In this document: positions 4,235 through 17,905 of the stretch, in pieces | Layout: the number at the start of each line of letters is the position of its first letter | Position numbering within the stretch: the stretch's first letter is position 1 | Assembly: GCA_015223015.1 (NCBI GenBank) | Contig: JADFWK010000005.1 | Span: 1 to 20,387 of the forward strand | DNA: 20,387 nt | From: Pseudomonadota bacterium | GTDB taxonomy: Bacteria > Desulfobacterota > DSM-4660 > Desulfatiglandales > B25-G16 | Reading direction: 5' to 3' | Translations under genes and position numbers: made by a program | Notes under the pieces: generated by a model | Told to the model about the DNA's origin: nothing | Databases searched by the model: none | The model's input: only the letters and a program-made list of their open reading frames with translations

Positions 4235-5596
4235 TTAAGTGCTATTATTCAAGGTATGTGAAACCCTCTTATTCTCACCTCCATTAAGTACATCCCGCAA
4301 GATAAAATTGGTATTCTGTTCAAGCTGGTTCATGGTTTCGGCAAGAGCCTTGAGTTGTATCAAGGTTTTCCGCGATTTTTCACGAGATCGGATTTCAAGA
4401 GCCGGATTACTCAGTATTGTGATGAGTCTGTCAAGAGCCAAGGCGTCAAAATGGTCGTCAGTCCTGTATAGAAGGTGAATCCACTCTGTCTTGACGTCCC
4501 CCGGGATCTTATCATAATGAGCAATGCTCTCATGGTTATGACCAAAGTGGAGGGATTTTTTCAGCTTATCAATGGTCTTCCAAACCACCTCCCTCTTGTG
4601 ATCATCCTGGGGACACTTACCAAAAAAATCTTTCCACATCCTTACGATCTGCATATTCACCCAATTCTCGCCCTTTTCAGGTGGAAGTGAAAGTCCCAGG
4701 AATTTATTCTGGATATCAACCAACTTTCCTCTCAGATCCTCATGCCCCCCGTTCATGGCCTCTAACATTCCATTCAATTCCCTAATAGCTGCAGCCTTGC
4801 CATTCCCTTCTTTTCCGTGTTCACGCAGCACCTGCTCCCACTGATCCCGAAGGTATCCTATCTCCTGTTTTACGAGATAAAAGATCAGTCCCGACTTGGT
4901 GGTAGCATTTCGGAGTGAATCTGCAAGTATGTTGCATGCCGTCAGTCTCTCCTCTGCCAGCCGCTCCATGGTCTTCATGGAATCCCGGTGTAAGTGGTAA
5001 GACAATAGTTCTGTTCCGAGAGAACGTGAGAGTTTCTTAATGACTCTGGTCTCATGGCTGTTGACCTTAATCGTAGATGGATAGAAGTGTATCTTGATGA
5101 CAGCCACGACAACATGCTCACTGTCTTTCCATATGATGTTTCCTTCGTAATCGCGAGGATACTCAAATGAGGAACGCTCGTCTAGATTAAGATCTGACTT
5201 GCGGACAAGCACTGGTTCCATATGATGGAAATCTGAGCATTTTCCTTCAACCTGCAGCGGGATACTCCGGGCATTGGTGCTTGGGTCTTGGGCAGTCCAG
5301 CTTTTGTGTTTCTCAACGCACCAGGACATGGCCTCAAGGGGACGACCCGGTTGATCTCTGTACGCAGTCCATGGCTTACCAGGAGGATTGTACCCAGATT
5401 TTGCCGGAAGGCCCCACGAGATTTCTTCTCTTCCATCGTCAATTATCCCGGAGGCAATCCTTTCTGCAATCAAGTCTGGTGGTTTTCCAATTCGATAGAT
5501 GGTGCCCTTAAAGGTATTAGGAAGGCAGTAGAGGATGGTTTCAATCATTTCTACGCAGGCCTTCTCTAGTACAGCCTTTTCTATCCCTATGAACAA
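4235..5596 (-). CDS. Uncharacterised soluble protein, 453 aa
   Basis: I do not recognise the family. There is no signal peptide or membrane segment. Residues ~18-130 are rich in W, P and G (for example NPPGKPWTAYRDQPGRP and MSWCVEKHKSWTAQDP), which suggests a globular domain. Around 129-183 come HHMEPVLVRKSDL and a beta-rich stretch (VVVAVIKIHFYPSTIKV). From ~185 on the protein is mainly charged helix with coiled-coil character, including a stretch near ADSLRNATTKSG that loosely recalls dimerisation helices of signalling proteins. Base composition looks coding throughout. The frame opens at a TAA shortly upstream, and the only start in the full ORF is TTG at 5596. ATG at 5545 (MIETILYC), preceded by GAGAAGG, is an equally good start and would give 436 aa. 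It is isolated between a convergent gene and a 967-bp gap. Confidence 0.7.
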   Translation of the reverse strand: MFIGIEKAVLEKACVEMIETILYCLPNTFKGTIYRIGKPPDLIAERIASGIIDDGREEISWGLPAKSGYNPPGKPWTAYRDQPGRPLEAMSWCVEKHKSWTAQDPSTNARSIPLQVEGKCSDFHHMEPVLVRKSDLNLDERSSFEYPRDYEGNIIWKDSEHVVVAVIKIHFYPSTIKVNSHETRVIKKLSRSLGTELLSYHLHRDSMKTMERLAEERLTACNILADSLRNATTKSGLIFYLVKQEIGYLRDQWEQVLREHGKEGNGKAAAIRELNGMLEAMNGGHEDLRGKLVDIQNKFLGLSLPPEKGENWVNMQIVRMWKDFFGKCPQDDHKREVVWKTIDKLKKSLHFGHNHESIAHYDKIPGDVKTEWIHLLYRTDDHFDALALDRLITILSNPALEIRSREKSRKTLIQLKALAETMNQLEQNTNFILRDVLNGGENKRVSHTLNNST

Positions 5597-7816: not shown

Positions 7817-7845
7817 TTGACACAAGAGTGCCTTTATCCTATGGT
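7817..7845 (+). promoter_or_regulatory. Sigma70-type promoter for the first GpgS-like gene
   Basis: TTGACA (7817-7822), 17-bp spacer, TATGGT (7840-7845). The -35 is a perfect consensus and the -10 matches 4 of 6. Transcription would begin near 7852, giving a leader of about 85 nt to the possible ATT start at 7938 or about 200 nt to the GTG at 8049. The leader holds a small inverted repeat, TGATTCA (7846-7852) with TGAATCA (7877-7883). On the other strand a TTGACA (7779-7784) without a convincing -10 could serve the divergent GT2 gene. Confidence 0.5.
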
Positions 7846-8048
7846 TGATTCAGTAATATAAACACTCAAAGCAATTTGAATCACCTATCACATCATACTT
7901 CTTACAGGTTACTACGTAAAGAAAAAGGGGTTTAACCATTCCTGAATTCTCGCAAAGAAGTGGGCGTATAACCACCTTCCACATAATTCAGCAGAACCGA
8001 AGGCAGCTGAGATCCCAGCTCAGGCTTCATTCTAAGTGGAAAAAGACG

Positions 8049-9305
8049 GTGTTGATTATCCCCACCCTGGCCAGCGAGTACACAGACCCCTCGAACCTCC
8101 CTGTGTTTAGGAACATCCTTGGGAACTTAAGAAACGTGGGTTACCTTTCCAGCATCATTTTTGGCCTGGATAGGGCAACTGAGGAAGACGCCCTTCGCCT
8201 GAGAGATCTCATAACAGCAACAGGAATCAAGCACTATCTTATTCAGTGGAACGATGGGCCTGGTTTCAGCGGTATTTATCGACAGCTGAACGAGGCAGGG
8301 TTCAACATTAGCGAGCCGGGCAAAGGCAAAAACATGTTTATCAGTTTCGGTATTGCCATTGCCTTGGGCGCTGAGTCTATCGGACTAATCGACGCAGACA
8401 TACGGACCTTTAAACAGGCGCAGCTGGATCGGCTTTTTTATCCAGTCGTTGTTCTCAATTACGACTTTTCAAAGGCCTACTATGCCCGAATATCTGAGAG
8501 GGGAGAGATTTATGGTCGGGTAAAACGGCTCCTCCTTGATCCCCTTTTGCTTTCCCTCAAAAGGAAATTTGCCGAAAGCAAGGACGAAAAGATGCTGCGC
8601 CTCATAGACTTCCTCTTAGGCTTTAATTATCAACTCTCCGGTGAGGTTGCCTTTCATGTGGACCTTCTAAAAAAGATGCGCTTTGCCACCAACTGGGGTG
8701 TAGAGATCTTTACCTTGATCGAGGTCTACCGCAAGGCCTCCTCTCCTGCACAGGTCATGTTTGCCGAAGAACCCTTTGATCACAAACATCAGGAGGCCTC
8801 ACCAGAAGACCAGGCCAAAGGCCTCAATCGAATGGGAATCGACATTGTAACAACCTTGATGAATGCATTGATTATTGAAGAAGGTCTGGAAATCTCCGAT
8901 ACCTTTTTTCGGGATTTGACCATTACCTACCAAGCTGTGGCTGAAGAACAGATCAAGAAATACTCTGATGATGCGGGCTTCAGCAATCTCAAATACGACC
9001 GTGACGCCGAGGAATACCTCGTCAAGAACGTCTTGCACAACTCAATCCTTGAAGCCGGCGAGGCTCTCACCGCTCCATACAGGATGACGGAAAAATTTCT
9101 GAGATTAGTCAATTCCCATTCCGAGTTTAAGCCCTTTCTTGAAAACGGCCTCGCTGAAGCCATCCTAGAGGTGGAGCGAAAGACACGCGGTAGTATCTTC
9201 GAGATGCCCCAAACCGTTTCGTGGGAGCGAGTATCGAATAAGCTACCTCGAATCTTTTATGATCTAGTTGAAGTGGTTGAGAATGAAAAAAGGCGTTTTT
9301 CCTGA
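8049..9305 (+). CDS. GpgS-like glycosyltransferase (GT81-type, glucosyl-3-phosphoglycerate synthase-like)
   Basis: At least 418 aa. Landmarks of the GpgS/mannosylglycerate-synthase type of GT-A enzyme are present: a start strand LIIPTLASEYTDP, PGKGKN (90-95) for the nucleotide, DAD metal motif (115-117, GLIDADIRTF), QLSGEVAF (195-202), NWGVEI (215-220) and HKH (245-247). GpgS enzymes transfer glucose from an NDP-glucose to D-3-phosphoglycerate, the first step to the compatible solute glucosylglycerate. Sugar and acceptor here are inferred. The C-terminal ~150 residues are helical and longer than in actinobacterial GpgS. GTG 8049 has no ribosome site. The frame stays open upstream to 7920 and encodes GRITTFH about 30 residues earlier, so the true start is probably upstream, perhaps ATT 7938 behind AAAAAGGGG. 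Confidence 0.7.
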   Translation: MLIIPTLASEYTDPSNLPVFRNILGNLRNVGYLSSIIFGLDRATEEDALRLRDLITATGIKHYLIQWNDGPGFSGIYRQLNEAGFNISEPGKGKNMFISFGIAIALGAESIGLIDADIRTFKQAQLDRLFYPVVVLNYDFSKAYYARISERGEIYGRVKRLLLDPLLLSLKRKFAESKDEKMLRLIDFLLGFNYQLSGEVAFHVDLLKKMRFATNWGVEIFTLIEVYRKASSPAQVMFAEEPFDHKHQEASPEDQAKGLNRMGIDIVTTLMNALIIEEGLEISDTFFRDLTITYQAVAEEQIKKYSDDAGFSNLKYDRDAEEYLVKNVLHNSILEAGEALTAPYRMTEKFLRLVNSHSEFKPFLENGLAEAILEVERKTRGSIFEMPQTVSWERVSNKLPRIFYDLVEVVENEKRRFS

Positions 9306-9326
9306 ACAAGGGTAAAACGCATTTTT
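9287..9326 (+). terminator. Intrinsic terminator overlapping the end of the GpgS-like gene
   Basis: The left arm AAAAAGGCGTTTT (9287-9299) pairs with AAAACGCATTTTT (9314-9326) with one mismatch around a 14-nt loop. The right arm ends in T5, and the hairpin spans the TGA stop (9303-9305). The A-tract and T-tract on both sides make it potentially bidirectional. The GC core is only 3-4 bp, so it may be leaky. Confidence 0.5.
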
Positions 9327-9429
9327 GCCTCAAACCAGTTCGTTTCAAATTCCTCTTGGATCTCCATGACACACCTACCCTGGATATTTACCGCCACCTT
9401 GCCTGTATCACCTGATGCTGGCCTTTTTC

Positions 9430-9459
9430 TCGACAACATTGTGATTAAGATTATATAAT
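9430..9459 (+). promoter_or_regulatory. Sigma70-type promoter for the diadenylate cyclase gene
   Basis: TCGACA (9430-9435), 18-bp spacer, perfect TATAAT (9454-9459). It lies 54 bp before the ATG, in a gap that begins with a terminator, so the cyclase gene probably has its own transcription start. Confidence 0.55.
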
Positions 9460-9513
9460 AAAGTTCCGAAACATTAGTCTAGATTGTTTCGCTGAGATAC
9501 AGAAGGAACAAGT

Positions 9514-10692
9514 ATGCATCTTTTTGCTATTATAACCAACCTGCGATTCCAGGATGTTTTAGATGTCCTGTTTCTTACCATGTTAGTGTACTACCTTTAT
9601 CTCTGGTTTTGGGGCACAAAGGCCTTTAAGGCCCTGGTAGGTCTGCTGGCTCTGGGGATCGTTTTCACCCTTGCTCGATTCTGGGGTCTGTTCCTAACTA
9701 CGTGGGTATTTCAGATACTCTGGCAGGTCTTGATTGTGCTCATCATTATCCTCTTTCAATCGGAGATCCGCCAGGTCCTTGAGAGGGTCAATCCCCTTCA
9801 AATAATCGGGCTGCGCACCTTTCCAAAGTCAGCGGATTGGATACCAAACTTCGTGACAGGAGTCTTCTCCCTAGCCAAGCAAAAGATCGGAGCCCTTATA
9901 ATCTTTGAGCGCTTGGACTGGGTGGAGGAGTTGATTACTGGAGGGGTTTTGCTGGAAGGTGAGCCAACCTCTGAGATCCTGCTAAGTATTTTTCAAAAAG
10001 AATCCCCATTACATGACGGCGCCGTGCTGATCCGAAAAGGAAGAGTCGCCAAGGTAGCCTGCTATCTCCCCCTGAGTTCTGCTGAGGGCCTCCCGAAACA
10101 ATGGGGCACCAGGCATAGGGCTGCCTTAGGTCTTTCTGAGCGTTGCGATGCCTGGGTTGTGGTCGTCTCGGAGGAACGCGGGGAGATTTCTCTAGCTCGG
10201 GGTGGGCAAATCATACCTGTGAAAGACCGTGAAGAGCTTTCCAATCTGGTGCAAAAGGCTATTACACCTCCTGCCGCTTCTGGCATAACCTGGTGGGAAA
10301 GGACTCGTGCTCTCATTGTCCGCCGATGGCCCCTGAAGATAGGAACCCTGGGTTTGGTCTGTGTGCTCTGGCTGTTGCTTGCGGGGCAACAGAACTTTGA
10401 GGTAAGCATAACGGTTCCCCTTGAGATAAAAAATCTCCCTGTGAAAATGGAAATTGTGGAGCCCGTGAATCCAGAGGTTCGTATCACTGTTCGAGGGCTT
10501 CGAAAGGACGCCAGCACCTTGAACAATAGAAACGTGCATGCCGAAATCGATCTCTCCATGGCCCGTTTCGGCAATAGGTTCTTTCGGATCACCCGAGACC
10601 AGATTCATCTTCCTAACGATAGAGTCAATGTAGTTCATATAGAGCCGCCGCAGATGGAGTTCACGTTGAGAGAGGCCATAAGCAAAGACTAG
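9514..10692 (+). CDS. cdaA: Diadenylate cyclase CdaA fused to a YbbR/CdaR-like domain
   Basis: 392 aa. The enzyme joins two ATP into cyclic di-AMP at the inner face of the cytoplasmic membrane. Three N-terminal helices (about 14-32, 38-55, 62-82) lead into the DAC domain, with catalytic DGA (168-170, SPLHDGAVLI) and GTRHRAA (198-204), both intact. CdaA usually stops near 270-280 aa. Here a fourth hydrophobic segment (275-290, LGLVCVLWLLLAG) is followed by ~95 residues reading VPLEIKNLPVKMEI and VRITVRGLRKD, the pattern of one YbbR repeat, as found in the separate regulator CdaR. One polypeptide therefore seems to carry both cyclase and its extracytoplasmic regulator. AGAAGGA at 9501-9507 places the ATG. 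No glmM follows, unlike the classic cdaA-cdaR-glmM order. GpgS-like genes lie on both sides. Confidence 0.9.
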   Translation: MHLFAIITNLRFQDVLDVLFLTMLVYYLYLWFWGTKAFKALVGLLALGIVFTLARFWGLFLTTWVFQILWQVLIVLIIILFQSEIRQVLERVNPLQIIGLRTFPKSADWIPNFVTGVFSLAKQKIGALIIFERLDWVEELITGGVLLEGEPTSEILLSIFQKESPLHDGAVLIRKGRVAKVACYLPLSSAEGLPKQWGTRHRAALGLSERCDAWVVVVSEERGEISLARGGQIIPVKDREELSNLVQKAITPPAASGITWWERTRALIVRRWPLKIGTLGLVCVLWLLLAGQQNFEVSITVPLEIKNLPVKMEIVEPVNPEVRITVRGLRKDASTLNNRNVHAEIDLSMARFGNRFFRITRDQIHLPNDRVNVVHIEPPQMEFTLREAISKD

Positions 10693-10928
10693 ACTCTAAT
10701 GAACCGCTCACACAACAGCTCTCCCGGTTCTCCGCAGTCAAAGTTCAGGGCGCCTTTAGCAGCGGGTTGCTTGGCAGCCCCGGTCAGGAAAGCAAATTGG
10801 GGGAGGAATTTCCAAGCGGTAGAAAGAGGGTCTGAAACCAGGGAAAAGTGATATTCTCGGACTGATTGAACGGTCATCTAGAGCATTTCGATGCGTCTCG
10901 AAAAGAACTATGAAAGGAGCGAAGGTTT

Positions 10929-12170
10929 ATGGGTTACGATACAGCGCTCAGAGGCTACACTTCGAAGAGGATTGAGGAAATAGAATCTGCAGATATCCTG
11001 GTGGGTATTCCCTGCTATTACAATGAGCGGACCATCGCTCACGTAATCCAGATGGTCACACACGGCCTCGACAAACACTATAAGGACCAAAGGAGTGTGA
11101 TTCTCATCGCCGATGGCGGTTCTACTGATGATACGAGAGAAGTGGCAAAAGAGTTTGAAATCAAGCCCTGGCAAGAGAAAATTACCTCTATTTACCGAGG
11201 ACATCCTGGAAAGGGTTCGGCCTTTCGGTCCTTGTTTGAGGCGGCCAAGCGCCTCAAGGTCAAGGCCTGTATGGTCGTTGACTCAGACCTGCGTTCCATC
11301 ACCAGCGATTGGGTTAAATATCTTCTCGAGCCAATTCTGGAAAAGGATTACCAGTTCGTTTGCCCCGTGTATTCGCGCTACAAGTATGATGGGACCATCA
11401 CCAATAACATCGTCTATAATCTAACCCGGGCTCTTTACGGTCTGCGCATTCGCCAGCCCATCGGGGGAGAGTTTGCCTTTGTCGGCGATCTGGCAGCGTA
11501 CTATGTCGAGCAGGATGTCTGGGATACGGACGTGGCCCGCTATGGCATAGACATTTGGATGACCACCAACGCCATCACCAACAACCTAAAAATTTGCCAA
11601 TCCAATCTAGGGGTGAAAATCCACGATGCCAAGGACCCGGCCGAGTCGCTTGGACCCATGTTTCGCCAGGTCGTCCACACCCTCTTTGTCCTCATGGAGC
11701 AGCATGAGGCAGAGTGGAAAGCGGTCAAGGGGAGCCGGACTGTGCCTACCTTTGGGCTTCAGGAATTCAGGGAGCCGGAGCCTATCCGGATCGATCTCAG
11801 TCACCTGGTGACAGAGTATAAAACCGGGTTTCGGCAGTTCAAAGGCTTGTATCGAGATATATTTTGCCCTGATTGCTTTGAAGAACTCAAAAGGTGCGCT
11901 ACCAAGGCCAAGACCAAGTTTGTCATGCCTGTCACGGCCTGGGTCCAGGTGCTCTACGAGACAGCCGCAACGTTCCACCACTGGACCCATAACCGCACCC
12001 AACTGGTCAATCTGGTCACCCCCCTGTACCTGGGCCGTGTAGCATCCTTCATCAACCAAACCAAAAATATGGGCTCAGCCCAAGCCGAAGAGGTCGTTGA
12101 AGACCAGGCCCAGGTCTTTGAGGATCACAAGGATTACCTGATCCAGATTTGGGAGGAAAAAAGGAAGTAG
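10929..12170 (+). CDS. GpgS-like glycosyltransferase, second and divergent copy
   Basis: 413 aa, cytosolic. Its order of motifs follows actinobacterial GpgS closely: ILVGIPCYYNERTIAHVI (23-40), ADGGSTDDT (61-69), PGKG (93-96), VVDSDLRSI with DSD (118-120), QPIGGEFAF (176-184), YGIDIW (205-210), SNLGVKIHD with H232, then LGPMFRQVVHTL. These are the donor, metal, acceptor and late-histidine positions of GT81 and the related GT78 mannosylglycerate synthase. Glucose or mannose transfer to 3-phosphoglycerate or glycerate is therefore likely but not settled. About 160 further residues (helical, CPDCFEELKRC near 313) extend beyond GpgS. AAAGGAG at 10913-10919 supports the ATG. It follows the c-di-AMP cyclase by 236 bp and precedes the cation ATPase by 354 bp. 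Confidence 0.75.
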   Translation: MGYDTALRGYTSKRIEEIESADILVGIPCYYNERTIAHVIQMVTHGLDKHYKDQRSVILIADGGSTDDTREVAKEFEIKPWQEKITSIYRGHPGKGSAFRSLFEAAKRLKVKACMVVDSDLRSITSDWVKYLLEPILEKDYQFVCPVYSRYKYDGTITNNIVYNLTRALYGLRIRQPIGGEFAFVGDLAAYYVEQDVWDTDVARYGIDIWMTTNAITNNLKICQSNLGVKIHDAKDPAESLGPMFRQVVHTLFVLMEQHEAEWKAVKGSRTVPTFGLQEFREPEPIRIDLSHLVTEYKTGFRQFKGLYRDIFCPDCFEELKRCATKAKTKFVMPVTAWVQVLYETAATFHHWTHNRTQLVNLVTPLYLGRVASFINQTKNMGSAQAEEVVEDQAQVFEDHKDYLIQIWEEKRK

Positions 12171-12227
12171 ACACTCTGTTTGCTGCGTTTTTTGAAACGG
12201 GCTGTTCCAACCTGAAACTCAGCCTGT

Positions 12228-12413
12228 TCAGGAGCAACACCTGGCCTTCAAGGCAGCAATATCCTCCTCTGCAGTTCGCCCTGCCCTATCGTAAGCGAGG
12301 AGCGAAATAATGAGGGCAATGATTTCGCTCCTTTTTGGCTTATCCCAGGCCTTTTTGGCTTTACCCTTTTTGACTTCAAGATTGATTGGCCATTCAAAAC
12401 GATAGAGGGACAT
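12228..12413 (-). CDS. Possible small protein, 61 aa
   Basis: The ATG at 12413 opens a 61-residue frame: MSLYRFEWPINLEVKKG, then KRSEIIALIISLLAYDRAG and RTAEEDIAALKARC to the stop. Composition is that of a real basic protein, with an amphipathic helix, a hydrophobic helix and a charged C-terminal helix, and codons are ordinary for the window. It lies in the 354-bp gap between the second GpgS-like gene and the P-type ATPase, opposite in strand to both. No Shine-Dalgarno sequence is visible. The frame continues upstream to 12575, across the ATPase start, so a longer form cannot be excluded, but the extra part looks non-coding. I recognise no family. Confidence 0.42.
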   Translation of the reverse strand: MSLYRFEWPINLEVKKGKAKKAWDKPKRSEIIALIISLLAYDRAGRTAEEDIAALKARCCS

Positions 12414-12524
12414 GGTGACGGGAACAGCAATGTGAGCCAGTTCCACAGGGAAGAACAAAGCCTTTGAGAAATAGAGAGTGATGCTATAAGATACCTGTAG
12501 CATACTCCAAAAGAAGGATTGATT

Positions 12525-15284
12525 ATGACTCAAAGGAAGGATTTCCATAATACGACCGTTAAGGAGGCCTTGCATGCCTTGGAAACAAGCAAGGACGGCC
12601 TTCCTCGGGATGAAGCTAAAAGGCGGCTTGAAAGATACGGGAGGAATGAGCTTTCTGTGGAGGCCAAAACCTCCACATGGCTCATGTTCCTATCCCAGCT
12701 TAAAGATGTATTGGTGCTAGTTCTCATAGCAGCCGGCATCATTTCCTTTGCCATCGGCAGCTATCGGGATGGAACCGTCATGTTCATAATCGTAATGATC
12801 AACGCCATCATCGGGTTCGTCCAGGAATACAAGGTGGAAAGGATTCTTGAGCGGTTGAAAGACCTCATTAAATCTCCTGCGAGGGTTTTCCGAGATGGCG
12901 AATTTGTCGAGATTGAGCAGGAAGAACTCGTGCCAGGGGACATCATACAGATTGAAGAAGGAGACAAGGTTCCAGCAGACATTAGAATTATCGAATCCTT
13001 TAATATGAAAACCAACGACTTTTCCCTTACGGGCGAATCTATGCCTCAGGAAAAGCATATCAATCCTATCGAGGGACTTCTAACCCTAGCGGACATGGAC
13101 AATATGGCATTTGTGGGGACCACTGTTGCTTTCGGCAATGGCAAAGGCGTGGTGGTTGCCACAGGGATGGATACCGAGCTCGGCAAGATAGCCTCCATGA
13201 CAGAGGAAACGGGTGAAACGAAATCCCCTCTGCAGAAAGAACTCGGTGTGTTAGCCAACACGTTAACTGCTGCGGTAATCGTTATCAGCATTGGTTTATT
13301 CATAGTAGCTTTACTCCAGGGCTTTGCGCTTTACATAAGTTTGGTCTACGCACTTGGAATCGCTGTGGCGGCCGTTCCTCAGGCGCTCCCCGCCCAGGTG
13401 ACCGTGTCCCTGTCGACCGCCAGCAAACGACTGGCGGAAAGAAACGCGGTTGTCAAAAACCTGCCCTCTATTGAAACCCTCGGCTCGACCACCATTATTT
13501 GCACTGATAAAACCGGAACTCTGACCAAAAATGAAATGACCGTCAAGTCAGTCTGGTTTGACGGTCAACAGTATGAGGTTACGGGAATCGGTTACGAACC
13601 CAAGGGAAACATAGTGGACGGAAACGGTAGAGAGTTGACCCAGGAACAGATTCACGAAATGGAAATTATGTTGGATGCTGCCACGATGGCGTCCAATGCA
13701 GAAATCCACGAACCTGACGATCAGCACGATACCTGGTATCCCATCGGTGACCCAACCGAGGCAGCCCTGATAGCCCTCTCCACCAAACTCGGCACCCGTT
13801 CACCTCGCGAAGATGAGGAGAATCCTGAATTGCACGAGTTTCCGTTCGACTCCGAGAGAAAGAGGATGAGTTCTATCCGGCAGTTTGGGGATCGCAAAGT
13901 GCTCACTATGAAAGGAGCCCTCGATAGCGTCTTGTCCATAAGCAAGTATATTTACCGGGATGGGAGTACTGTCCCAATCGCTGAAAACGATAGGGAGGTA
14001 ATACGCACCATCAATAAAAGGTACGCGGAGAAGGCTATGCGCGTGCTGGCCGTAGCCTATCGACCTCTGGAGCTAGACGGCCGAGACTATGTTTTGGAGG
14101 GGATTGAGAAGGACGTCATCTTCCTCGGTGCAGCAGGAATGACCGATCCTCCGAAAGAGGGTGTTAAAGAGGCAATCAAAGACGCACACAGGGCACACAT
14201 TCGCACCTTTATCGCGACCGGTGACCATGCCCTTACTGCCGAAGCAGTTGGTCAGGAAATCGGTCTGTCCGAGTCTGGCAAACCATCACCGGTCGTCACC
14301 GGAAGAGAGCTCCACGATATGAGTGATGAAAAACTGAAGGATATCATGGGCCAAAACGATTCTCTCATATTCTCAAGGGTAGACCCAAAGGACAAACTAC
14401 GGATCGTTAAGATCTTAGAGGAACAAGGGCAGGTAGTGGCAGTTACCGGTGATGGTGTGAACGATGCCCCCGCATTGAAGAGAGCGCACATTGGTGTTGC
14501 AATGGGAAAGACCGGTACCGACGTAGCTAAGGAGGCCTCACAACTGGTCTTATTGGACGATAGTTTTCCCACGCTTTTCCACGCCGTAAGAGAGGGCAGA
14601 ACTATCTATAATAATCTAAAGAAAACGGTGATAGCTTCCATGACCACCAATGGCGCGGAACTGGCCATAGTTATGATGGGGCTTGCTGCTGTTGCCTTAT
14701 GGGATTGGGCTATACCGATACTGGCAATCCAGATTTTGACGATAGACCTGTTGGCGGAGGTAATGCCACTCACCTTCTTGACTTTTGATCCCCCATCCAA
14801 GGAGCTCATGACCTCCCCGCCGCGCAGTCAAAAAGAACACATACTCAACAAAACCACCTCTGCCGAGGTTGCCTTTTTTGGGCTGTTGATGGGTGCATTG
14901 GCCTTTACGAATTTTGCCTTTTTCATGTTTAGACATGGTGTCGTGCTCACGGTCGATAAGGCCGATACCATCCTTTACGCGAAGGCAACAACGATTAGCT
15001 TTGTTACAATAGCTTACTGTCAGTTTGCCAATATCATGTCACGAAGGTATGAGCATACCTCGATTTTCAATCGAAACTTCTGGACGAACAAAATACTGCT
15101 CGGATCTATCTTGCTATCTATAGGACTGGTGTTTGTGGCCATATACGGCCCCTACATAAGCGATTTTCTGGCATTTGCCTCATTGAGCATCGACGATTGG
15201 TTGTTCGTTTACCTTGCAACAGGGGTATTCTTGGCAGCCTTTGAGTTGCTGAAACTCTTTAAGCGTCGGAGAAGAAAGGCATGA
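12525..15284 (+). CDS. P2-type cation-transporting ATPase (PacL/SERCA-like), ion uncertain
   Basis: 919 aa from ATG 12525, which sits 6 bp after AAGGA. A TTG two codons earlier overlaps that ribosome site and is unlikely to be the start. Order: cation ATPase N-domain (1-60), M1-M2 (~60-100), actuator TGES (169-172), M3-M4, phosphorylation motif DKTGTLT with D328, nucleotide domain, TGDGVNDAP (641-649) and M5-M10. It is a full-length pump of the inner membrane. Ion-site residues differ from SERCA: M4 reads PQALP where Ca pumps have PEGLP (Q286), while M5 keeps N709 and E712. M6 reads IDLLAEVMP, aligning D741 with N796, A744 with T799 and E745 with D800. The ion could be Ca2+, Na+ or K+. It is the last gene of the plus-strand c-di-AMP/GpgS block and converges on the mscS group. 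Confidence 0.92.
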   Translation: MTQRKDFHNTTVKEALHALETSKDGLPRDEAKRRLERYGRNELSVEAKTSTWLMFLSQLKDVLVLVLIAAGIISFAIGSYRDGTVMFIIVMINAIIGFVQEYKVERILERLKDLIKSPARVFRDGEFVEIEQEELVPGDIIQIEEGDKVPADIRIIESFNMKTNDFSLTGESMPQEKHINPIEGLLTLADMDNMAFVGTTVAFGNGKGVVVATGMDTELGKIASMTEETGETKSPLQKELGVLANTLTAAVIVISIGLFIVALLQGFALYISLVYALGIAVAAVPQALPAQVTVSLSTASKRLAERNAVVKNLPSIETLGSTTIICTDKTGTLTKNEMTVKSVWFDGQQYEVTGIGYEPKGNIVDGNGRELTQEQIHEMEIMLDAATMASNAEIHEPDDQHDTWYPIGDPTEAALIALSTKLGTRSPREDEENPELHEFPFDSERKRMSSIRQFGDRKVLTMKGALDSVLSISKYIYRDGSTVPIAENDREVIRTINKRYAEKAMRVLAVAYRPLELDGRDYVLEGIEKDVIFLGAAGMTDPPKEGVKEAIKDAHRAHIRTFIATGDHALTAEAVGQEIGLSESGKPSPVVTGRELHDMSDEKLKDIMGQNDSLIFSRVDPKDKLRIVKILEEQGQVVAVTGDGVNDAPALKRAHIGVAMGKTGTDVAKEASQLVLLDDSFPTLFHAVREGRTIYNNLKKTVIASMTTNGAELAIVMMGLAAVALWDWAIPILAIQILTIDLLAEVMPLTFLTFDPPSKELMTSPPRSQKEHILNKTTSAEVAFFGLLMGALAFTNFAFFMFRHGVVLTVDKADTILYAKATTISFVTIAYCQFANIMSRRYEHTSIFNRNFWTNKILLGSILLSIGLVFVAIYGPYISDFLAFASLSIDDWLFVYLATGVFLAAFELLKLFKRRRRKA

Positions 15285-15573
15285 GCCCTTCACCCTTGGG
15301 CACGCCGGGCATATTGATGCCAGTGATCTCATATTCTTTGAGGTGATTAAAAGGATAAGGAATCCCCGAAACCCCAATCAAGGAAACCAGTCCGACACGC
15401 TGTCAAGTGTTGGTGGGCTGTTGCCCAAAGGCGGTGATGTCCGTTATGGAGGAAAGGGGTAACGGTTGCCTCTTCGAACAGTGAAGTATCGAGGGTGAAG
15501 GGGGGGGAAGTCCATGGGCGCTCTCCGTGATCTTAATCCTCAACGATGATACCATCGCAATCTTTTGGTGGAG

Positions 15574-15828
15574 TTAGTCGTGTATCTTTCCCTTATGTCG
15601 ATTACCGGTCATTTTGGCAATAATGTACCCAAGAACCAGCCCTATCACCATGGTGAGGGGAGTTAAGATGATCTGAGGCATGCTTATTTTCCAGAAAAAG
15701 ATTCGAAAGGATACCACCTGAGTGTTCTGAAAAAAGATTATGAGTAATAGGACAATTATGACGAACGCAACGATTGTCTTAGGTTTTTTCACGAATCCTT
15801 TTAGGTCAGTAGTGTTCTTTTCCTTCAT
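15574..15828 (-). CDS. LapA-domain (DUF1049) small membrane protein
   Basis: 84 aa with two hydrophobic helices (about 18-36 and 52-70). The family signature is the stretch FFQNTQVVSFRIFFWKISMP between the helices, followed by a second helix ending LGYIIAK. Relatives are inner-membrane proteins, of which the best known (LapA/YciS) takes part with LapB in control of lipopolysaccharide assembly; no lapB is in the window. GGAGGG upstream of the ATG is a strong ribosome site. It is the last gene of the mscS, corA-remnant, lapA series on the minus strand, and its 3' end faces that of the cation ATPase across 289 bp in which I see no gene or clear terminator. Confidence 0.78.
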   Translation of the reverse strand: MKEKNTTDLKGFVKKPKTIVAFVIIVLLLIIFFQNTQVVSFRIFFWKISMPQIILTPLTMVIGLVLGYIIAKMTGNRHKGKIHD

Positions 15829-15895
15829 ATTTGATCCCTCCGCTAAAAGACGTAAACCTTACAGTGTTATTCTCTTATCTCAAGACGCATGCCAC

Positions 15896-16228
15896 CTATA
15901 GCCATCGCCTTCTTCTGAAATAGAATACCATGGAAACCACAATGATAACCATTGCAAAAAGAGCCGCAAAATAACCCCAATGCCATTCCAGTTCCGGCAT
16001 GTATTTGAAATTCATTCCATAAATACCCGCCACAAAGGTTAATGGTATGAATATGGCAGCAATAATCGTTAAAACCTTCATAACCTCATTCATTCTATTG
16101 CTCACGCTTGAAAGGTACGTGTCGAGCATCCCGGAGACCAGATCTCGAAGTGTCTCTATGGTGTCAACAACCTGTATGGTGTGATCGCATACATCCCTGA
16201 AGTATATTCCCGTTGATGCATCAATCAC
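15896..16228 (-). pseudogene. 5'-truncated corA (C-terminal two-helix region only)
   Basis: 110 residues match the end of CorA Mg2+/Co2+ channels: IYFRDVCDHTIQVVDTIET from the long stalk helix, SSVSNRMNEVMKVLTII, first membrane helix, the GMN filter (71-73), MPELEW loop, second helix and a basic tail. CorA is normally about 315-370 aa, so the ~220-residue cytosolic domain is missing. The similarity runs a few codons beyond the GTG at 16228 (reading EPAV) until an in-frame TAA (16247-16249). The mscS stop lies just beyond, at 16274, so the missing half is not nearby. It most likely remains from a deletion. The frame has stayed open, so translation of a two-helix peptide is conceivable. Confidence 0.82.
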
Positions 16229-16273
16229 CGCCGGTTCCTGTGTAGGTTACCCAATACAGAAGACCTCAAGAAA

Positions 16274-17905
16274 TCAGCCTTTCTCGTCTGATTCTCTCTG
16301 CCTAGAATCGCTCGAAATCGTGACATTAAGGGGCCTTCGATCATCCTGGGCCAGATACGTTGTTGTGGTCGGAAAGGCGAACTCGATACCCTCAGCCTCA
16401 AAGGCCCGCATGATCTGCAGGTTCACCCGTTCGTTGAAGTCTAGAAAATCCCAATAGTTGGGCGGGAAATACCAGTAGATCATCATGAGGTTCAGGGATG
16501 CATCGTTGAATTCGCTAAAATAGACTCGGGGTGGGAATTCCGGGTCCATGCCCTCATGGTTGTTGAGTATCTCCCTGATGATCGTTAAGGCCCGCTCTAC
16601 CTTTTCGCGCGGCGTGTCGTAGGTAATGGTGATATTGGTGAGACGGCGAATGGACGGGCGCCGGCCGATGTTCTCGATGTTAATTCTCGCCATCTTCTCA
16701 TTGGGAACCGCCACCAAGTGCCCGGTGAAGGTACGTATCCTCGTCGATCGAAACCCAATATCTTCCACGGGGCCATCGACACCGTCAACGACAACCCGAT
16801 CCCCCACTACAAAGGGCTTATCCATCATGATCATGATGCTACCAAAAAAATTCTTTAAGGTATCCTGTGCCGCCAGGGCCACAGCCAAGCCGCCAATTCC
16901 GAGACCTGCCAGCAGTGCATTCAGTGGCTTACCGGTGATGGCTTGCAGAATATATATGCCACCAAACACCACAACCAAAACACTAGTGATCACCCGGATC
17001 AGTTTCACGAAATTCAAATCAAGCTTATTGTCCTCTCTCTTTGCGAATCTTGTTAGTTCATATTCGAGCACATCCACCAAACGATATGCGAAGAGGACAA
17101 CTGCCACTGCACTGAAGACACTAACTGCACCTCCGGCAATGTGCTCTGCGATTGGTGGCAGAAGTAAAAGCCCCTTGAGTGCATAAATGCCGATAGCAAA
17201 CAGCAGTATTCGAATGGGCCATAAAGTCGCTTGAAGAACCAGACGCAACCGGGTCTTTTCCTCTGTGACTCTTAGAGCAGCGTTCATGGTTGACAGGAAG
17301 CTAACGAGGAGCTTGCCCCCGATAAAAAGAATGACTAATGCTACTAAAACAGCCAGATAGCGCCACAAAAGGGAGGTCCATAACCATTCAGGCAAAAAGG
17401 CCCTCTGGGTGTAAACAAAAATGACCGCTACCAGGATAACCGCGATGATCCTCAGAATGCTTTTCAGGTGCTCTAGGGGAGCTTCTGAGATATTACTCCT
17501 TATGCTGGATGGTAAGGAGAGAAAAAAAAGATCCATTAGTCGCACCATTTGAAAGAACAGGAATATGAGAGCCAGGGCAAACAAAAATCCCTCCAAGCCA
17601 TGGAGAAGTAAGACCAGCTGTTGAGGGAGATGAAGCGGCGCCTCTGCAACTCTAAGTAATAAGGCGGCGAACAACAGGCGCAGTGAAGGAAGAAAACCCC
17701 ACAAATAGGGAACCCACTGGTCAAACCCCTTGCGCTTTAGGGCGGCTTCCATGCGCCTGTTAGCATAGCGCGAGAGTAATTCCAAAGTCAGAAAACCGAC
17801 AAAGAGTATAAACAGTGAAACACCGAACTGCCAAAGCTCATTACCTTTTGATACGATTTCTAAAACTGGAGTAAATTGATTAAACAGGCTCTGTATACCT
17901 TTCAT
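16274..17905 (-). CDS. MscS-family mechanosensitive ion channel
   Basis: 543 aa, inner membrane. An N-terminal region with several hydrophobic helices (about 25-45, 66-90, 98-128, 150-168, 180-205, 225-250, 258-280, 302-322) precedes the MscS core. The core has the glycine/alanine-rich pore helix LLAGLGIGGLAVALAAQ (331-347), the beta domain PFVVGDRVVVDG and VEDIGFRSTRIRT (364-392), LVAVPNEKM, and the C-terminal alpha-beta cage to ~520. MscS channels open under membrane tension and release osmolytes during hypo-osmotic shock. The larger membrane part is typical of MscS relatives beyond E. coli MscS (286 aa). GGAGGG before the ATG gives a strong ribosome site, embedded in a 12-bp palindrome. 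It faces a cation ATPase and GpgS-like genes, which fits an osmotic role. Confidence 0.93.
   Translation of the reverse strand: MKGIQSLFNQFTPVLEIVSKGNELWQFGVSLFILFVGFLTLELLSRYANRRMEAALKRKGFDQWVPYLWGFLPSLRLLFAALLLRVAEAPLHLPQQLVLLLHGLEGFLFALALIFLFFQMVRLMDLFFLSLPSSIRSNISEAPLEHLKSILRIIAVILVAVIFVYTQRAFLPEWLWTSLLWRYLAVLVALVILFIGGKLLVSFLSTMNAALRVTEEKTRLRLVLQATLWPIRILLFAIGIYALKGLLLLPPIAEHIAGGAVSVFSAVAVVLFAYRLVDVLEYELTRFAKREDNKLDLNFVKLIRVITSVLVVVFGGIYILQAITGKPLNALLAGLGIGGLAVALAAQDTLKNFFGSIMIMMDKPFVVGDRVVVDGVDGPVEDIGFRSTRIRTFTGHLVAVPNEKMARINIENIGRRPSIRRLTNITITYDTPREKVERALTIIREILNNHEGMDPEFPPRVYFSEFNDASLNLMMIYWYFPPNYWDFLDFNERVNLQIMRAFEAEGIEFAFPTTTTYLAQDDRRPLNVTISSDSRQRESDEKG

Follow-up and report, generated by a model that had tools for sequence, protein, structure and literature searches.

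What does it mean that the gene for a diadenylate cyclase, the synthase of cyclic di-AMP (c-di-AMP), stands among genes for compatible-solute synthesis and ion movement? The question is raised by a 20,387-nucleotide stretch (positions 1 to 20,387 of contig JADFWK010000005.1, assembly GCA_015223015.1; hereafter the window) from a member of the Desulfobacterota whose genome assembly, 1.74 Mb in 267 contigs, is 68.5% complete. In the window the cyclase gene cdaA lies between the genes for two GpgS-like glycosyltransferases, here called GpgS1 and GpgS2, and faces genes for an MscS channel and a CorA remnant. Comparison with 85 genomes of the order (probably Desulfatiglandales, a name taken from those of close homologues; searching at class level gave no genomes beyond these) shows that the neighbourhood is real, recurrent and loosely held, its exact arrangement being a property of the genus while the functional grouping is wider. 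The interpretation preferred here, which has about an even chance of being correct, is that the block represents the form taken in one genus by an osmotic-stress neighbourhood that recurs in the order, in which c-di-AMP made by CdaA is proposed to set the balance of solutes and ions. The firmest new point of the analysis is an AUU start codon of GpgS1.

A sequence-only reading of the window had placed a diadenylate cyclase at 9514-10692 between two GpgS-like glycosyltransferases, and the family matches agree with it, though neither of the two transferases reaches an equivalog cut-off. CdaA (9514..10692, + strand) matches PF02457 (E 6e-39), scores above the cut-off of TIGR00159, carries an N-terminal CdaA_N membrane domain (PF19293, 25.6 bits against a cut-off of 23.8) and a weak C-terminal YbbR match (E 0.02, below cut-off), and contains DGA and GTRHR, which we take to be the motifs of the diadenylate cyclase (DAC) domain. 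It is the single DAC match in the window's genome and, on these matches, is a CdaA-type diadenylate cyclase predicted to make c-di-AMP. GpgS1 (7938..9305, + strand; a GT81/GpgS-like synthase of 455 aa from an ATT start, or 418 aa from GTG 8049) scores 200.5 bits against NF040724 from the GTG start and 214.8 bits with the ATT-led extension, the cut-off being 700, and the extension widens its coverage of that model from 36-364 to 6-364. GpgS2 (10929..12170, + strand; a GpgS-like GT-A glycosyltransferase of 413 aa) matches PF00535, reaches 73 bits against NF010496 with its cut-off of 262, and matches solved GpgS structures at E 7e-8. A search of solved structures with the single GpgS1 sequence gave no match, and a profile search did: matches to solved GpgS/MpgS were found at E 8e-7 for GpgS1 and E 3e-8 for GpgS2. 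The D-x-D and the G-G/S-G-E/D acceptor motif do not vary in alignments A1 and A2. By these profiles both enzymes are GpgS-like and both fall below the equivalog thresholds.

The company kept by GpgS1, orthologues of which occur in 63 of the 85 genomes, bears on its role. Among 20 fetched GpgS1 loci from other families, an MPGP-family phosphatase gene was present in 17, an HD-domain gene in 14, and 11 had a gene of the MOFRL-type glycerate 2-kinase family (the families were assigned from representatives at L174; TIGR01486 at 240.6 bits, cut-off 164.75). Often a glycosyltransferase paralogue comes next, which shares about 40% identity with GpgS2. Phosphatase and glycerate kinase are the set expected for a solute of the glucosylglycerate type, and solute synthesis is therefore the likely role of GpgS1; its product, we infer, is very likely glucosyl-3-phosphoglycerate. 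The sequence-only reading had held that action of the GpgS-like enzymes on cell-envelope glycans would count against it, and on this point the operon company of GpgS1 speaks for solute synthesis. That both enzymes might be envelope glycosyltransferases was considered and rejected on the same kind of evidence, their operon company consisting of solute or alpha-glucan genes. As in the known synthesis of glucosylglycerate by GpgS with GpgP/MPGP, GpgS1 is found across the order with an MPGP phosphatase and a MOFRL glycerate kinase; unlike in that system, there are two distinct GpgS-like families, their scores are below equivalog level, and the phosphatase is unlinked in the window's genus. In the window's family MPGP is present in 14 of 18 genomes, unlinked to GpgS1 (as also in G012). 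Separately, a stand-alone DAC gene resembling DacZ, a haloarchaeal family name, adjoins the GpgS1 operon in G069 (L182:3450-4043), and similar short DAC genes occur in several other genomes of the order.

The reading frame of GpgS1 is open for 37 codons upstream of GTG 8049, to ATT 7938, and its start is most likely that ATT, judging from how the stretch between them has evolved. A Shine-Dalgarno-like AAGGGG (7925..7930, + strand, by sequence reading) lies 7 nt ahead of it. In 42 relatives of the order, the codon at this position is ATT in 29, ATC in five, ATG in six, GTT in one and unalignable in one (L155), and 32 of the 42 lack any ATG, GTG or TTG between that codon and the stop upstream of it; orthologues from outside the order (L335-L349) have ATG at the same place in 14 of 15, and ATT in one. 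Codon analysis of 40 relatives (leaving out the gapped rows L186 and L196 and rows that contained N or ran into an edge) found no stops in the ATT-led stretch in any of them, differences by codon position of 0.204/0.169/0.534, beside 0.212/0.118/0.585 in the core of the gene, and codon changes that are 53% synonymous in frame against 6-7% in shifted frames; the leader, unlike this stretch, differs at 0.645 overall. A Shine-Dalgarno match of at least 5/6 to AAGGAG at a spacing of 5-9 is present in 36 of the 40. If GpgS1 were instead translated from GTG 8049, the ATT-led stretch would be an untranslated leader, as might be supposed from the position of that GTG as the first standard start past the upstream stop in the window and from nine of the 40 relatives in which the only standard start is the corresponding codon. 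However, a leader of this kind would not be expected to change as in-frame codons do, 21 of the 40 relatives have no standard start at all within the stretch, and the outgroup ATG falls at the place of the ATT, which together make this alternative very improbable. In control genes a standard start was in reach throughout (GpgS2 27/27, CdaA 64/64, MPGP 42/42, HD 28/28); the glycosyltransferase paralogue, its query starting too far upstream, first gave 25/41, and gave 41/41 with a longer reach. The AUU start explains how GpgS1 can be annotated too short, here by 37 residues, when standard starts are used.

An AUU start may also carry regulatory meaning. In the excerpted text of PMC5472188, infC starts with AUU in E. 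coli and ATC in Streptomyces, Streptomyces sigR starts with GTC, and both are repressed by initiation factor 3 (IF3). Like these genes as described there, GpgS1 pairs a non-canonical start, apparently kept by selection, with a good ribosome-binding site; unlike them, it is a metabolic osmolyte gene, its codon being ATT or ATC in 34 of the 42 relatives and ATG in nearly all of the outgroup orthologues. By analogy, synthesis of GpgS1 could be limited by initiation fidelity through IF3, and the codon makes such translational control of osmolyte synthesis testable. As a conserved feature of a metabolic gene, the AUU would add to infC and sigR a rare further case of a non-canonical start maintained by selection. 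No literature on an AUU start of GpgS was found in a search that covered subscription journals thinly.

Within the window's genus, five genomes of which were compared, CdaA adjoins GpgS2 in all five (GpgS2 being only a remnant in G014), and GpgS1 precedes CdaA in four (G000, G011, G012 and G014). In G012 the block lies 0.4 Mb from its former upstream neighbours; a GpgS1 stub of 76 residues persists at that old site, and a second GpgS2 copy is preceded by a decayed CdaA tail (L113:9417-11064; L114:5558-9656). Both stub and tail are traces left when the block was duplicated and moved. The block thus moves and breaks, yet CdaA and GpgS2 stay together. On the opposite strand the MscS-type mechanosensitive channel (16274..17905, - strand; profile match) is full length, and the CorA remnant (15896..16228, - strand; homology to about 16243) is the C-terminal third, aligning with residues about 241-353 of a 353/354-residue relative, so that an MscS and a corA remnant opposed to the block, as first described, are indeed there. 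After MscS, G014 keeps residues 1-80 of CorA and the window residues 241-353, so that their ancestor had MscS-CorA.

Beyond the genus, GpgS2 is the better guide to the grouping. Close orthologues occur in 25 of the 85 genomes, and the surroundings of 26 of the 27 copies were used (a partial copy in G024 was left out); several of the GpgS2 and CdaA loci are cut off by the end of a contig, where absence of a neighbour is weak evidence. Within 8 kb of the 26 GpgS2 loci, GlgA was found in eight (five genera), a DAC gene in seven, MscS in five, GlgC in four, CorA in two and TrkA/TrkH in one, and at least one of DAC, MscS, CorA, Trk or GlgA in 14 loci, representing 8 of 16 genera; in G062 a further DAC gene lies about 8 kb from GpgS2, edge to edge. 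A control set of 20 regions of the order, picked arbitrarily and 330 kb in total, contained none of the 14 searched families; the difference between GpgS2 loci and these control regions has P 5e-5 when loci are counted and 4e-4 when genera are. The arrangements vary: MscS-CorA facing GpgS2-CdaA-CBM48 in G043; CdaA-CBM48-MscS-CorA, tightly spaced, in G023 and G024; GpgS2-GlgA-CdaA in G038 and G039; MscS-GpgS2-GlgA in G031, where the first two genes overlap by 4 bp, and in G032; in G062, GlgA-GpgS2-TrkH-TrkA followed by a DacZ-like fragment, a USP-domain permease and CdaA; and, in NaphS2, CdaA-TrkA-TrkH-GpgS2. The proposed grouping of solute, ion and messenger genes therefore stands in so far as CdaA recurs in other genera with GpgS2, MscS, CorA, ion or alpha-glucan genes, and does not stand as a fixed arrangement, recurring elsewhere in other gene orders. 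In G005 a TrkA_N-DHH-DHHA1 protein, phosphodiesterase-like by its domains and with an RCK_N-type domain, follows GpgS2 by 1 bp (L119:9231-11898); full-length relatives of it are present in four of the 85 genomes, all in the window's family. At L262:1803-5954 and L264:380-5522, CdaA, a small AMPK1_CBM/CBM48 gene, MscS and CorA are found near an rRNA operon, and four genomes encode a YitT/DUF2179 membrane protein close to GpgS2 or to what remains of it (L112:9120-10022, L118:1266-2147, L120:3618-4493 and L209:3124-4005).

The frequency of GlgA in these counts allows a different function to be proposed, in which GpgS2 serves the synthesis of a glycogen-like alpha-glucan, as a primer-making enzyme or a partner of GlgA, and c-di-AMP tunes carbon storage rather than solutes. 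In addition to the GlgA and GlgC neighbours of GpgS2, a glycogen-recognition CBM48/AMPK1_CBM gene directly follows CdaA in G023, G024 and G043, and a second DAC type (~480 residues) has GlgA near three of its 21 loci and MscS near one. There is also a cyanobacterial precedent, as c-di-AMP acts on glycogen via SbtB-GlgB according to the excerpted text of PMC10117731, which also lists KtrA, TrkA and MgtE of Synechocystis as pulled down as c-di-AMP binders; because of these findings the CBM48, GlgA and CorA neighbours are suggestive. Unlike the SbtB-GlgB connection as presented there, the link in this order is one of gene neighbourhood (GlgA, GlgC, CBM48). However, in G076 and G043 the neighbour of GpgS2 is MscS rather than GlgA, and genes for CorA or Trk are met repeatedly. 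Carbon storage as the function of the grouping is thus possible, if somewhat unlikely, and the alpha-glucan and solute readings are not mutually exclusive.

The osmotic reading, with c-di-AMP in control, has a number of results weighing against it. The loci compared share ancestry, so that the tests overstate their independence, and the control regions were hand-picked. Seen from CdaA (the ~400-residue type), searched osmotic or GpgS genes are in the fetched stretch of 11 of 43 loci (5 of 26 genera) and absent from that of the other 32; against the control regions P is 0.012 by locus, and by genus (5/26 vs 0/20) it is 0.06, which is not significant, in a count that leaves out some CdaA-type matches such as those of G019, G021 and G028. 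The GpgS1-CdaA link is limited to the genus, GpgS1 lying elsewhere in G013, and the exact GpgS1-CdaA-GpgS2 order was found, among the 85 genomes, in the window's genus only, so that conservation of the order in related genomes, by which the earlier proposal could be judged, fails outside the genus. The P2-type ATPase is sporadic, standing beside the block in two of the five genus genomes (G000 and G013); its inclusion in the original grouping is not upheld, and it was rejected as a core member for that reason. MPGP stood beside GpgS1 in none of nine fetched loci of the window's own family and had no match in the window's incomplete genome; nor was it met in the window, where no GpgP/MpgP phosphatase had been seen before. 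The gaps within the block, first given as 208, 236 and 354 bp, measure 208, 236 and 348 bp (the last being 354 only if the ATPase starts at ATG 12525). These gaps, with promoter-like sites before GpgS1 (TTGACA-17-TATGGT, 7817..7845, + strand; a 10/12 pattern match only, its first base being the coordinate at which the block was first said to begin) and before cdaA (TCGACA-18-TATAAT, 9430..9459, + strand; 11/12, likewise a pattern match only), speak for a neighbourhood, as had been suggested, and against a single operon, which was rejected. The second site suggests a separate transcription unit for cdaA; in the scanned region the promoter-like pattern was matched 18 times against 10.8 expected.

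Direct signs of c-di-AMP control belong to the same side of the balance. No c-di-AMP riboswitch was found with Rfam in the window or in 10 related loci. RCK_C genes, which the sequence-only reading had not seen in the window, do stand beside the block in relatives: in G012 an RCK_C protein is encoded at a distance of 1.3 kb from GpgS2, and G062 and NaphS2 have a TrkA with RCK_C in the vicinity of GpgS2. The c-di-AMP signature given in the excerpted text of PMC10117811 was present in no RCK_C protein of the examined loci, its sole match being one unrelated ORF, in a check that covered the fetched loci and left out four TrkA_C matches of the window's genome. The order is like the Firmicutes and Actinobacteria in having a CdaA-type cyclase and RCK_C proteins, with genes for K+ transport and MscS near in some relatives. 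It is unlike them, with their RCK_C and ydaO riboswitch targets, in the two negatives just given; and in that excerpt their known targets act mostly in ion and solute transport, whereas the neighbours here are genes of solute and alpha-glucan synthesis. A search for literature on c-di-AMP with glucosylglycerate in Desulfobacterota found none, subscription journals again being thinly covered.

It could accordingly be argued that the grouping around CdaA is mostly local shuffling, and that the osmotic link was passed down in a few lineages but means nothing for function. In this order the neighbours of CdaA change often, as the 32 loci and the genus-level test indicate; other CdaA loci adjoin mraZ and genes of cell-division type, together with a PilZ-like gene (L257, L266), or Hsp20/CBS genes (L265), and the G012 block has left its old upstream neighbours. 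However, the grouping recurs across genera in different gene orders, the CdaA-CBM48-MscS-CorA genes are tightly spaced, and none of the 20 control regions held such genes. Shuffling by itself is a possible, if somewhat unlikely, account; the association recurs, is by no means universal, and shows more strongly when GpgS2 is taken as the starting point than when CdaA is.

The osmotic-stress neighbourhood preferred here may be pictured as follows. GpgS1 would make glucosyl-3-phosphoglycerate, which the MPGP-family phosphatase encoded elsewhere in the genus would convert to glucosylglycerate. GpgS2, a second GpgS-like transferase, is often beside glycogen synthase and therefore probably uses the same activated glucose. 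MscS would let solutes out, CorA, Trk or the ATPase would move ions, and c-di-AMP from CdaA is proposed to set the balance between solutes and ions. An extension of this scheme, improbable at present, is that two unusual controls meet on solute synthesis, a c-di-AMP synthase found time and again among genes for glucosylglycerate, alpha-glucan, MscS, Mg2+ and K+, and an order-wide AUU/AUC start through which osmolyte output would follow initiation fidelity; besides transcription, GpgS1 would then read out IF3 or the state of the ribosome, which salt could change. As c-di-AMP has been studied mainly in Gram-positives and cyanobacteria, the block provides testable candidate targets in the Desulfobacterota, and a candidate link of the messenger to solute and alpha-glucan synthesis, beyond transport alone.

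Other genes of the block and its flanks complete the description. The ATPase that follows GpgS2 (12519..15284, + strand) is of P2 type by profile matches, in agreement with the cation ATPase first named there. It is nearest to the PMR1/Listeria-type Ca2+ pumps, scoring 609 bits where the P2A Ca2+ ATPase equivalog stands at 798; its M4 motif is PQALP, with Gln, where the Listeria Ca2+ pump has PEALS, with Glu, and M6 has Asp/Glu where that pump has Asn/Asp. A LapA-domain membrane protein (15574..15828, - strand; profile match) is also encoded, and the block is flanked by housekeeping genes for Der, enolase and pyruvate kinase, named by sequence reading only. Lastly, a 453-residue protein encoded at window positions 4235-5596 has no Pfam or NCBIfam match at default threshold and is kept in the genus and in G006 (71%, L250).

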